Source: Candidatus Bathyarchaeia archaeon (GTDB taxonomy: Archaea > Thermoproteota > Bathyarchaeia > Bathyarchaeales > Bathyarchaeaceae). Taken from it: DNA of 64,000 bases. The notes under the pieces are model-generated. The model ran no database searches, was not told where the DNA came from, and was given only the letters and a program-made list of their open reading frames with translations. This document shows, in pieces, positions 40,030 to 43,551 of this stretch (position 1 is its first letter; the number at the start of each line of letters is the position of its first letter). The stretch lies in assembly GCA_035283685.1 (NCBI GenBank), contig DATETJ010000009.1, forward strand, positions 396,925 through 460,924, given 5' to 3'. The translations under genes and the position numbers were made by a program.

Positions 40030-40697
40030 AAAACTACGTGCCTCTGTTGAAAATCGATTTACATTTACACACTCATTATTCACGAGACAGTAAGACCACG
40101 CTTGGTGAAGTTATTCATTATGCCAAGAAGCGAGGACTCGACGGAGTTGCTGTAACAGACCATGATACTGTGCAAGGGGCACGCAGATTGGCACAGCAAA
40201 AAGACCTGTTAATTATCCCAGGCATGGAAGTCAGCAGCCTGCACGGACACATCTTAGGCCTGAACATAACTGAACCAGTGCAACCCAAAAAAAGTATCAC
40301 AGAAACCGTGGAAAAAATCAGGCAGTTAGGCGGAATTGCTGTAATAGCTCATCCCGCGGTAGCTATCAAGAGTGGACTTGGCAGCCGAATAACCTCGGCC
40401 TCAAGCATTGATGCAGTTGAGGTTATAAACGCGTCCGCTTTTCCGTTTTTTCTCTCAACATATCTAGGACGTCGACTTGCTCGTCGTCTAGCGCTTCCTC
40501 AGACTGCTGGCAGTGATTCACACTTCCCAGAAGAAATCGGCAGCGCATACACATTCGTTGATGCGGACTCGAATCAAGACGATATAATGGAGGCTTTAAG
40601 AAACGGAAAAACCATACCTGTTGGGAAACCGATATCTTGGATGAAAAGAGTAGCGAGAGGATCAGAAGGCATACAGGAAAGGCTGAGAAGACTTTAA
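40026..40697 (+). CDS. PHP-domain metal-dependent phosphoesterase
   Basis: A 223-residue PHP protein. Metal ligands in order: DLHLHTHYSRDS (HxHxxxS), VAVTDHDTVQG, PGMEVSS, HGHILG, AVIAHPAV and TAGSDSHFPEE. Family members hydrolyse phosphodiesters or phosphoesters of nucleotides, sugars or histidinol. The GTG start overlaps the stop of the MetRS beta gene (GTGA). It converges with and overlaps ftsZ by four bases at the 3' end (TTAA shared by both stop codons). Confidence 0.9.
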   Translation: MKNYVPLLKIDLHLHTHYSRDSKTTLGEVIHYAKKRGLDGVAVTDHDTVQGARRLAQQKDLLIIPGMEVSSLHGHILGLNITEPVQPKKSITETVEKIRQLGGIAVIAHPAVAIKSGLGSRITSASSIDAVEVINASAFPFFLSTYLGRRLARRLALPQTAGSDSHFPEEIGSAYTFVDADSNQDDIMEALRNGKTIPVGKPISWMKRVARGSEGIQERLRRL

Positions 40698-41821
40698 TCC
40701 TCAAAGCCCTCGATCTGATCTATGCCCAAATCCACAGTCAGAGATTTTTCGGACTCAAAATACGATGACTCTATATCGTAAAGCTCTGGTATCATGTTCC
40801 TCAAACCATAGCGACTGTAAGGTGAGTTCACACCGGTCATGACAAGAGTGACTTGAAGACCTTCGCTATCCGGGCACATCCTAGCCCCCCACACTACCCT
40901 CGCGCTGTGACCCATCCTGTCTGCCACAAGCTCCTTGACTCTGTCAACCTCTTGAAAAGTCATGTTGACATCGCCTGAAACCTGTATTAAAGCTCCTGTA
41001 GCACTAGCATGGTCAGCACTTAGAAGTAAAGTGTCCAAGGCACTTTGAACAGCTTCTTCAACTCGGTTGGGAGCATCAGATTCCCCTATTCCAACAGTTG
41101 CCATTCCGCCTTCTTTCACGATGGTTTTGAAATCACTTATGTCCAAGTTAATCATACTGGGCTCTGAAAGAGTTTCAACTATCCCTTTGATCATGTCAGC
41201 TAAAACGTGATCTGCTGCTCTGCAAGCCTCGCTAAATGGAAGCCCTCGAGCAGCCTTCACGATCTTATCGCTGTCGACCAGTACCGCTGTATCGCAAGCC
41301 ACTCGCATCTCGCTTACAGCATCAGTCACAAAACCACGGCGATATTCACTCATCCTGAATGGCGTAGCGACGACACCGACAACGACAGCACCTTTTCGCC
41401 GAGCAGTCTCAGCCACAACTGGAGCCGCACCCGTGCCAGTGCCACCGCCCAAGCCAACAACCACAAATACTACGTCGATGTTTTCAACCAAGCTTTCTAT
41501 AAGCGCTGTTGATTCTTTTGCGGCTGCCCTTCCAGTCTCGGGATTACCGCCTGCACTTAAGCCGCGTGTCACCGTTTCCCCAATCAACACTTTTCTGGCA
41601 GAGCCCACAAGATTAAGGTCTTTCAGATCTGTATTGACTGCAATGCACTCAGCGCCTGTTAGGCCATCATCTGTAAGTAGACTGGCTATTCTATTCCCAG
41701 CACCCCCGACTCCCAGAACCGCAACACGACATCTAGGCTTGCCTAGATCACTTTGAACCTGAATCTTCTTGCGCCGAGCGGCAGGCTTAGATGCTGCCGT
41801 TCGCTTGCGCTGCTTAGCCAC
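40694..41821 (-). CDS. ftsZ: cell-division tubulin homologue FtsZ
   Basis: A 375-residue FtsZ. Basic N-terminal extension (residues 1-28), GTP-binding VLGVGGAGNRIASLL, the tubulin signature GLGGGTGTGAAPV (about residue 126), and the synergy (T7) region NLDISDFKTIVKEGG. It polymerises into a mid-cell ring and hydrolyses GTP at the subunit interface. The GTG start overlaps the end of the upstream ribbon-helix-helix gene by 8 nt, so the two are co-expressed. There is no long C-terminal tail with a conserved SepF-binding peptide, although the acidic end QIEGFED is similar in role. Confidence 0.96.
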   Translation of the reverse strand: MAKQRKRTAASKPAARRKKIQVQSDLGKPRCRVAVLGVGGAGNRIASLLTDDGLTGAECIAVNTDLKDLNLVGSARKVLIGETVTRGLSAGGNPETGRAAAKESTALIESLVENIDVVFVVVGLGGGTGTGAAPVVAETARRKGAVVVGVVATPFRMSEYRRGFVTDAVSEMRVACDTAVLVDSDKIVKAARGLPFSEACRAADHVLADMIKGIVETLSEPSMINLDISDFKTIVKEGGMATVGIGESDAPNRVEEAVQSALDTLLLSADHASATGALIQVSGDVNMTFQEVDRVKELVADRMGHSARVVWGARMCPDSEGLQVTLVMTGVNSPYSRYGLRNMIPELYDIESSYFESEKSLTVDLGIDQIEGFED

Positions 41822-41972
41822 TGGCGTTTTTCCCCCTCCAAGCCTCAGCGTTCAACAAGTCCCTTATTGCCACGCGAATCGCTTCAGCTCGGTTCGGATA
41901 GTAACGATCGTCCACCAAACCCTGCAAAGCTTTCAAGTAAGGTTCAGGAAGGTACAGCGTAATCAGCTTCAC
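41814..41972 (-). CDS. ribbon-helix-helix (CopG/CdrS-like) regulator upstream of ftsZ
   Basis: A 52-residue RHH protein: N-terminal strand MKLITLYLPEPYLKALQGLV, then RYYPNRAEAIRVAIRDLLNAEAW, the two helices of the MetJ/Arc fold. It starts at GTG 41972 behind a perfect GGAGGTG, and overlaps ftsZ by 8 nt. In haloarchaea the small RHH protein CdrS is co-encoded with ftsZ2 and controls division genes; this gene has the same arrangement. It is too short for common annotation cut-offs. Confidence 0.9.
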   Translation of the reverse strand: MKLITLYLPEPYLKALQGLVDDRYYPNRAEAIRVAIRDLLNAEAWRGKNASG

Positions 41973-42027
41973 TCAAACACCTCCACAACTCTCCACAAGG
42001 CAAAAGCAACAGAGCGCGGGATAGCCC

Positions 42028-42069
42028 ATATATAGACTTATGTTATGTTACAAATATGTCTCAAATATG
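42028..42069 (-). promoter_or_regulatory. promoter and candidate operator of the RHH-ftsZ operon
   Basis: On the minus strand, CTATATATGGG (box at 42028-42034) lies about 56 nt before the RHH start codon. Just upstream, CATATTTG occurs twice in direct orientation (42051-42058 and 42062-42069), 11 bp apart, one helical turn, as expected for RHH dimers binding on one face. Autoregulation is inferred from position. Confidence 0.5.
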
Positions 42070-42207
42070 ATACAAACACGCCTGCTCAGTCTTTCCATCC
42101 CTCTGGAAAATCCGCATTTTGTTTTTGTGTATATTTGCTGCTTTCGAGAACCTTTATGTTTTCGCTGCGTGATTAAACGTCTAGGTTGCGGTTGAAAACT
42201 GTTTACG

Positions 42208-43551
42208 ATGTCTCGGCGGATTGGATCTATGAGCAGTAGGCGGAGGCAATGCCGAGTTTTCTTGGAGAGTTTCGGGTGTTCGTCTAACGTTGCTGACGGC
42301 GAATTCATGTCCGGATGCTTGCTTGAAGCGGGTTTTGACCTTGTGAACTCAGCGGAAGAGGCTGACGTTCTGATTTATAATACGTGCGCTGTGAAGACGC
42401 CCACGGAAAACCGTGCCATAGAGCTCTTGAAAAAAGCTCCGACCCTGAAAACGCACAAGAAAAAGCTCCTAGTCACTGGTTGTTTGCCACTGATCAATTT
42501 CAAGCGCTTGAAGGACGAAGTCAACTTTGATGCAGTTTTGGGACCAAGTTGCGGTTCAGGTGTGGTTGAGACACTGCAGAAAATCATCGATAACAAACCT
42601 GTTTCACCGAAGAAGCCGAGTCAAAACGCAAAGCCAAGTCTGTGCTTCCCCAGACATGCCGTTAACCCGGTGATCAGCATCGTCCCTGTGGCGCAAGGTT
42701 GCTTAGGTTCTTGCTCATACTGTTGTGTTGTTTTTGCACGTGGTCACCTCCACAGCTTCAGCATTGACGATGTTGTCAAACGAATCAAGTCAGATTTGCT
42801 TTGTGGCGCCCGAGAGGTTTGGTTAACAGGACAAGATATGGGCTCTTATGGAAAAGACATTGGCGTCAATCTTGCGGAGCTTTTGGGAAAAGGATGCGCA
42901 TTGGAAGGAAACTACATGGTAAGAGTCGGAATGATGACGCCTAACCTAGCTTTAGAGATCCTTCCCGATCTGGTTGAAGCCTTTCGAAATGAACATGTGT
43001 TCAAGTTCGTGCACTTGCCTGTTCAGAGCGGCGATAACCGCGTGTTAGAACTCATGAATCGCGAGTACTCAATTGAAGATTTCATGCAGATTGTCGAAAC
43101 CTTCAGAAACACCATTCAGAACATCACTGTGGCAACAGACATAATCTGCGGGTTCCCAGGCGAAAGCTCAGGGGCTTTTGATCGAACTTTAGGCTTGATT
43201 AAAGAGATCAAACCGGATGTTGTGAACATATCCAAGTTCTTTCCAAGACCGGGAACCGCAGCTGAAAAAATGAAGCCCAAGGTCTCGCTAGAGGAAGTCA
43301 GTGAAAGAAGCAAGAGGGCTACCAGCTTAGTCAGAAAAATCTCTTTCGAAAAAAACAGGAAGTGGCTGCATTGGAAAGGACGCATTCTTGTCGACGAACG
43401 AGGAAAGCGTGCTAACACACTCATTGGGAGAAACTTTGCCTACAAACCAATAGTCATTAGAAATCACAGTCCATCTTTGCTCGGAACTTTTGTCGATGTC
43501 AAGGTGACTGCCGCTTTTCAAACCTATTTGGCAGCCGAGATTGTTGATTAG
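42208..43551 (+). CDS. tRNA methylthiotransferase (MiaB/CDKAL1-like radical SAM)
   Basis: A 447-residue MTTase. N-terminal UPF0004 domain with three Cys (SFGCSSN, NTCAVK, VTGCLP); radical SAM core with CLGSCSYCC binding a 4Fe-4S cluster; C-terminal TRAM-like domain (GRILVDERGKRANTLIGRNFAYKPIVI). The archaeal/eukaryotic eMtaB/CDKAL1 branch adds a methylthio group to t6A37 of tRNA. ATG at 42208 or 42229. It is divergent from the RHH-ftsZ operon and shares its intergenic region. Clear and intact. Confidence 0.9.
   Translation: MSRRIGSMSSRRRQCRVFLESFGCSSNVADGEFMSGCLLEAGFDLVNSAEEADVLIYNTCAVKTPTENRAIELLKKAPTLKTHKKKLLVTGCLPLINFKRLKDEVNFDAVLGPSCGSGVVETLQKIIDNKPVSPKKPSQNAKPSLCFPRHAVNPVISIVPVAQGCLGSCSYCCVVFARGHLHSFSIDDVVKRIKSDLLCGAREVWLTGQDMGSYGKDIGVNLAELLGKGCALEGNYMVRVGMMTPNLALEILPDLVEAFRNEHVFKFVHLPVQSGDNRVLELMNREYSIEDFMQIVETFRNTIQNITVATDIICGFPGESSGAFDRTLGLIKEIKPDVVNISKFFPRPGTAAEKMKPKVSLEEVSERSKRATSLVRKISFEKNRKWLHWKGRILVDERGKRANTLIGRNFAYKPIVIRNHSPSLLGTFVDVKVTAAFQTYLAAEIVD

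Follow-up and report, generated by a model that had tools for sequence, protein, structure and literature searches.

In the window, i.e., the whole stretch of 64,000 nucleotides that was analysed, a small ribbon-helix-helix (RHH) gene stands directly before ftsZ and overlaps it (Table 1). This raises the question whether the RHH gene belongs with the haloarchaeal division regulator gene cdrS, and which product of such an operon the cell has to keep. The genome (class Bathyarchaeia, 2.28 Mb, 98% complete) contained one PF00091 match, and the named relatives retrieved by the RHH scan were Bathyarchaeia too.

Table 1. Positions of the features of the cdrS-ftsZ locus within the window
Feature	Position	Strand	Basis
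ftsZ (FtsZ-A, RHH-linked type), 375 aa, GTPase motifs intact, fast-evolving	40694..41821	minus	Pfam, motifs, tree
FtsZ C-terminal peptide IPELYDIESSYFESEKSLTVDLGIDQIEGFED, GID motif, retained by itself in tail-only relatives	40697..40792	minus	C-terminus comparison; PMC8178401
Overlap of RHH gene and ftsZ, 8 nt, GTGGCTAA	41814..41821	minus	Reading and ORF list; recurs in relatives
cdrS-like RHH gene, 52 aa, GTG start	41814..41972	minus	ORF listing, Pfam, orthologue scan, NCBIfam
Ribosome-binding site GGAGGTG of the RHH gene	41978..41984	minus	Direct sequence reading
TATA-like CTATATATG, downstream of the repeats	42028..42036	minus	Sequence reading only
Putative operator CGTGTTT, CATATTT, CATATTT, CATA, 11-bp steps	42040..42080	minus	Upstream comparison, spacing test
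Divergent MiaB-like radical SAM/TRAM gene	42208..43551	plus	Pfam and locus comparison

The RHH gene and its link to ftsZ

The preliminary description of this DNA had named a 52-residue RHH gene with a perfect ribosome-binding site and an 8-nt overlap with ftsZ, and both were confirmed. Indeed, the ribosome-binding site lies 5 nt before the start codon, Pfam RHH_1 was matched over residues 4-40 (E=5.2e-7; 29.8 bits, cut-off 20.5), and the GTG start of ftsZ is placed inside the RHH gene. The open reading frame cannot be a chance one, since close orthologues (55-78% identity) were present as 110 copies in 109 of the 201 genomes of the class. The overlap recurred as well, the start codon of the following gene being exactly there in 63 of 108 loci (a set in which one region, of G198, is counted twice, as L025 and L040, and from which three of the 111 loci entered dropped out as they yielded no RHH row).

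The protein consists of a single small RHH domain encoded directly before ftsZ on the same strand, as in haloarchaeal CdrS-FtsZ2 (available text of Darnell 2020, PMC7439475, and Liao 2021, PMC8406309), and its best NCBIfam match was the haloarchaeal CdrS model NF058555 (E=1.8e-9). The score of 37.4 bits stays below the equivalog cut-off of 100, and in this as in its length of 52 aa the protein differs from its haloarchaeal counterparts; it is therefore labelled CdrS-like and not a haloarchaeal CdrS equivalog, so that the identity first proposed holds in this form. That it is an antitoxin or a relative of NikR that came to lie beside ftsZ by chance is highly improbable: weak NikR matches in PDB and NCBIfam and the name parD given to the ftsZ2 neighbour in the available text of Pende et al. 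2021 (PMC8178401) speak for it, but the NCBIfam ones are confined to the first 45-58 positions of models of 129-148 residues and are surpassed by CdrS, 52 residues leave no room for a metal-binding domain, no toxin gene adjoins (the neighbours being ftsZ and the MiaB-like gene), and the adjacency to ftsZ across many families already refutes chance. A second RHH paralogue in the same genome (L003; G000:C4:79372-79515; 53% identity) was rejected as a second cdrS-ftsZ locus, its neighbours being pyrF-like and ribosomal-like. This paralogue and its relatives (about 50% identical) are widespread in the class and adjoin pyrF-like, ribosomal-like and cyclophilin-like genes, not ftsZ.

Outside the class, the proposed old link between cdrS and ftsZ beyond Euryarchaeota was borne out by the conservation of the gene pair. 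An RHH match at E<=1e-6 was found in 241 of 349 genomes of the phylum sample, and ftsZ stood directly behind the RHH gene in 23 of 40 out-of-class loci fetched, which had been chosen among the best-scoring ones. This part of the interpretation is not new, as it has already been published: the available text of Darnell et al. 2020 (PMC7439475) describes cdrS-ftsZ2 from every archaeal clade but DPANN, Bathyarchaeota having been included in the search, and that of Pende et al. 2021 (PMC8178401) describes archaeal ftsZ2 as frequently found with parD.

The FtsZ encoded in the window matched both Tubulin and FtsZ_C of Pfam and contained the motifs T1 (GVGGAGNRI), T4 (GGGTGTG) and T7 (NLDISD). Despite these intact GTP motifs, it evolves much faster than other FtsZ-A proteins: its branch is very long (1.17), its body is 56% identical to other intact FtsZ, versus 74% for G190 of the same family, and its score of 278.5 bits lies under the FtsZ equivalog cut-off (TIGR00065; 295.2). 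In a tree with long branches and without an FtsZ2 reference, it grouped with 15 out-of-class RHH-linked FtsZ proteins and not with FtsZ-B or FtsZ1 of M. jannaschii. Near its C-terminus it carries the GID motif (VDLGIDQIE), a position that reads GLD in Bathyarchaeum and mostly GLY, DLY or NLY in other tails. Only RHH-linked FtsZ-A carries this C-terminal peptide, FtsZ-B being without it.

FtsZ tails without a GTPase body

In the 201 genomes of the class, the RHH search gave a match at 1e-3 in 157 and the FtsZ search at 1e-10 in 122. Behind the 110 close RHH copies, ftsZ followed directly in 52 cases, FtsZ was found only elsewhere in 15, and no FtsZ was among the places listed in 43 (including G003, with distant tubulin-family matches at places absent from the listing). 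At loci without adjacent ftsZ a small open reading frame lies behind the RHH gene, often with the same 8-nt overlap. In all, 46 copies preceded an intact ftsZ, seven a full-length FtsZ with altered or destroyed GTP motifs (G060, G066, G117, G136, G151, G164 and G180), and 49 an open reading frame of 39-108 codons that keeps of FtsZ only the C-terminal peptide (hereafter tail-only); six were followed by nothing recognisable (G003, G013, G015, G026, G036 and G046) and two were cut by contig ends (G160 and G184). Hence, unlike haloarchaeal CdrS-FtsZ2, relatives of the window often lack the FtsZ body, and in Bathyarchaeia the loci that retain the regulator but no FtsZ GTPase are about as numerous as those that have both. 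Intact and tail-only loci represent the same place, since the same divergent MiaB-like gene adjoins both.

The assignment of the small frames was made with a model of 56 FtsZ-A C-termini, which recognised the frame following the RHH gene at 55 of 61 loci, namely the 49 frames of 39-108 aa and six full-length proteins, one of these with near-normal motifs; reversed frames gave a best E of 1. No FtsZ was found at E<=1e-10 in 35 of the 49 tail-only genomes. The idea that FtsZ-B is the relocated body of FtsZ-A was rejected, as FtsZ-B forms a separate clade and occurs also in genomes with an intact FtsZ-A. A named collection of 80 loci comprised 46 tail-only loci, 33 intact ones and one full-length FtsZ without an exact GGGTGTG; it is no independent sample, since many of its genomes are the same as in the 201-genome set. 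Candidatus Bathycorpusculum and Candidatus Bathyarchaeum, with B. tardum in the latter, belong to the tail-only group. Conversely, a full FtsZ-A without a close RHH gene was encountered in 12 genomes of families f14, f17 and f20. When tails were sought beside the divergent RHH genes of families f10, f13, f23 and f24, there was one match, with E=0.43. In another family of the phylum (G242, L345, 1977-2189), a 70-aa frame about 350 nt behind the RHH gene ends in the tail-like LYLDLGIPRIKEEY (E=0.0015); this weak candidate may indicate that tail-only genes reach outside Bathyarchaeia. Among the matches listed from the open-licence literature, there was no report of tail-only FtsZ genes.

Open frame and motif were kept in all 49 tail-only loci. 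The ratio dN/dS (NG86; pairs with pS <=0.05 or >=0.72, or pN >=0.7, being dropped) in genus g11 (25 sequences, 300 pairs that are not independent) was 0.28 for the whole frame (234 pairs used), 0.20 for the tail part (165 pairs) and 0.36 for the N-terminal part and linker (243 pairs). For the whole frame it was 0.36 in g3 (12 of 15 pairs) and 0.30 in g10 (three of 10 pairs); with values well under 1 in three genera, the tail-only frames are under purifying selection. Similarly, the seven damaged FtsZ proteins were 22-67% identical to intact FtsZ over the body and 39-75% over the tail, the tail being higher in each of the seven, whereas pairs of intact FtsZ displayed the reverse pattern (body 81%, tail 71%). 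On a tree of the MiaB-like neighbour gene, tail-only and intact states were separated by seven changes; the tree is built from one gene, many of its forks are weak, and it is restricted to the 108 loci with a readable MiaB neighbour. As judged from this tree, tail-only frames arose several times. They are found in families f1 and f16, at two places in each, and in f2, f11 and f26. The tail-only G185 was placed closest to the window (support 92). For the tail protein, no globular domain was predicted (mean pLDDT 60, pTM 0.17).

SepF and other division machinery

The prevailing view of FtsZ is that of a polymerising GTPase whose tail serves as a tether. According to the available text of Pende et al. 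2021 (PMC8178401), the GID motif is the SepF-binding core of the archaeal FtsZ C-terminal domain, and archaea that have no FtsZ have no SepF either. The window agrees with that description in the place of the peptide at the FtsZ end, in its GID motif and in the SepF gene of its genome; it differs in that 49 relatives carry the peptide on a separate small protein, and in that SepF is kept where FtsZ is missing. SepF was found in 161 of the 201 genomes of the class. Of the 49 tail-only genomes, 45 have it, the others being G021, G058, G102 and G177; of the 35 tail-only genomes that gave no FtsZ match at 1e-10, 28 of them at least 90% complete, SepF is present in 32. These FtsZ-less genomes with SepF are exceptions to the published statement, as worded in that available text. 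Among 17 SepF genes read, 14 of them from tail-only genomes, the core looks intact; a PDB search for mapping the SepF pocket matched only 3zie and 3zig. A pull-down in Haloferax recovered SepF with FtsZ2 and not with FtsZ1 (available text of PMC8187382), and likewise only the RHH-linked FtsZ-A bears the peptide here.

The six genomes with the RHH gene but without a tail all lacked SepF. This association of tail and SepF gave p=7e-6 in a Fisher test that ignores kinship, and four to five independent contrasts with none discordant on the tree, too few for significance. Some of the absences may be gaps, because four of the six genomes are less than 80% complete, the firmer ones being G003 (95%) and G036 (one contig). 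Genomes such as G001, G008 and G025, which retained SepF without FtsZ-A and without a tail, argue against a simple rule.

Matches to ESCRT-III (Snf7) were found in 162 of the 201 genomes at E<=1e-3, including that of the window (E=4.4e-5), and in 99 above the curated cut-off. Such genes are thus common in the class, making an alternative constriction machine available, and ESCRT-III may have taken over constriction. Weak tubulin matches in FtsZ-less genomes were rejected as FtsZ; those inspected belonged to a Tubulin_2-like protein of about 890 aa and a neighbouring divergent protein. The former (motifs GLGSAGTN and GGGTGSG) occurs in FtsZ-less and other Bathyarchaeia (L170-L176, e.g., G139:C2:45993-46226, and L178-L180), and in three genomes read a divergent open frame of 462-503 aa lies near its gene or on another contig. 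The pair is a possible replacement cytoskeleton.

Another partner than SepF has to be considered for the tail protein, namely the RHH protein, an ESCRT-III component or the large tubulin-like protein. In g11, constraint extends to the N-terminal part and linker; G102 and G177 combine good tails with the lack of a SepF match; and the divergent partner of the tubulin-like protein in G093 contains the FtsZ-tail-like INMDLNLQQVE. This reading is nevertheless unlikely, if still to be reckoned with, given the lack of SepF matches in all genomes with tail-less loci, the position of two SepF-less genomes (f16/g60) among those with the weakest tails (E of 4e-4 and 1.4e-3), and the homology of the tail to a peptide known to bind SepF (available text of PMC8178401).

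A repeat array at the promoter and the probable purpose of the operon

Before the RHH gene lies an array of the form CATRTTT-N4-CATATTT-N4-CATA with a fixed period of 11 bp. The pair CRTRTT-N5-CRTATT was exact in 86 of 108 loci (shuffle mean 0.02) and present with at most one mismatch in 105 (shuffle mean 0.6), including all 49 tail-only loci; no other repeat spacing from 6 to 17 was found at the 108 loci. CopG, omega, MetJ and ParD are RHH regulators with tandem operators, repeated short sites at their own promoter. The present system shares the RHH fold and such sites; it differs in the spacing of the sites, which is 11 bp, and in its partner, since ftsZ or the ftsZ tail takes the place of a toxin or replication gene. 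The step of 11 bp would put RHH dimers on one face of the DNA. Most relatives have a conserved TATA-like box upstream of the repeats, which is the geometry of a repressor, and a further AT-rich box downstream of them, making the sign of regulation ambivalent; the layout leans towards self-repression in these relatives. In the window, the upstream box is absent and only the downstream one is found. In families such as f11, f12, f16 and f19 (upstream of L091-L094 and L096-L100), the half-site is mostly CGTATTT and not CATATTT, possibly a co-change with residues of the RHH strand.

In 12 whole genomes, the exact pair CATRTTT-N4-CATATTT occurred 10 times, eight times at the cdrS promoter and twice inside long open reading frames, and was absent from four of the genomes. 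The near confinement to this promoter points to self-regulation. It also makes it improbable that CdrS acts here mainly as a global regulator whose place before ftsZ is merely historical, a reading for which the survival of the RHH gene beyond ftsZ in many genomes speaks, as do the 18 chromosomal binding sites of Haloferax CdrS; among the sites listed in the available text of PMC8406309, its own promoter does not appear. An array at the own promoter is found here in place of the Haloferax regulon. Still more doubtful is the possibility that the tail-only frames are inert remains of a dying ftsZ, hitchhiking behind a cdrS that is itself kept for other targets. Loss of the body is common, and the six tail-less genomes keep the RHH gene without any tail; yet the low dN/dS in three genera, the open frame and motif throughout, the several origins on the neighbour-gene tree and the want of another strong operator site outside the own promoter in the 12 genomes all argue against it.

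Gene order and the 8-nt overlap recur, the 11-bp array is conserved, and regulator, array and FtsZ tail are retained after loss of the body, which suggests that the tail has a job of its own. The reading preferred here, and judged rather probable, is a self-regulated CdrS-type operon whose indispensable cargo is the SepF-binding FtsZ tail. RHH dimers would sit next to one another on the repeats and control the operon that encodes them, and the overlap would couple translation of the second gene to that of the first. The product that must stay would be the C-terminal peptide that attaches archaeal FtsZ to SepF, its membrane anchor. Once another machine had taken over constriction, the GTPase body could decay or be deleted in frame, while the start, the overlap and the tail that binds SepF were left in place; the result would be a small disordered protein, which may still engage SepF. 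The window would be the full version, with a fast-evolving FtsZ. More tentatively, with chances put slightly below even, the FtsZ tail was freed several times in Bathyarchaeia as a CdrS-controlled gene. Its product would be a small disordered ligand of SepF through which part of the FtsZ divisome keeps running in cells without the FtsZ GTPase, and which may serve as an adaptor to ESCRT-III.

If this is true, repeated loss of the GTPase with tail, regulator and operator kept would separate the polymer and tether roles of FtsZ in nature, and it goes against the statement, in the available text of PMC8178401, that archaea lacking FtsZ also lack SepF. It offers a testable case of the handover of a division machine from FtsZ to something else, for which a named organism with the tail-only form, Candidatus Bathyarchaeum tardum, is available.
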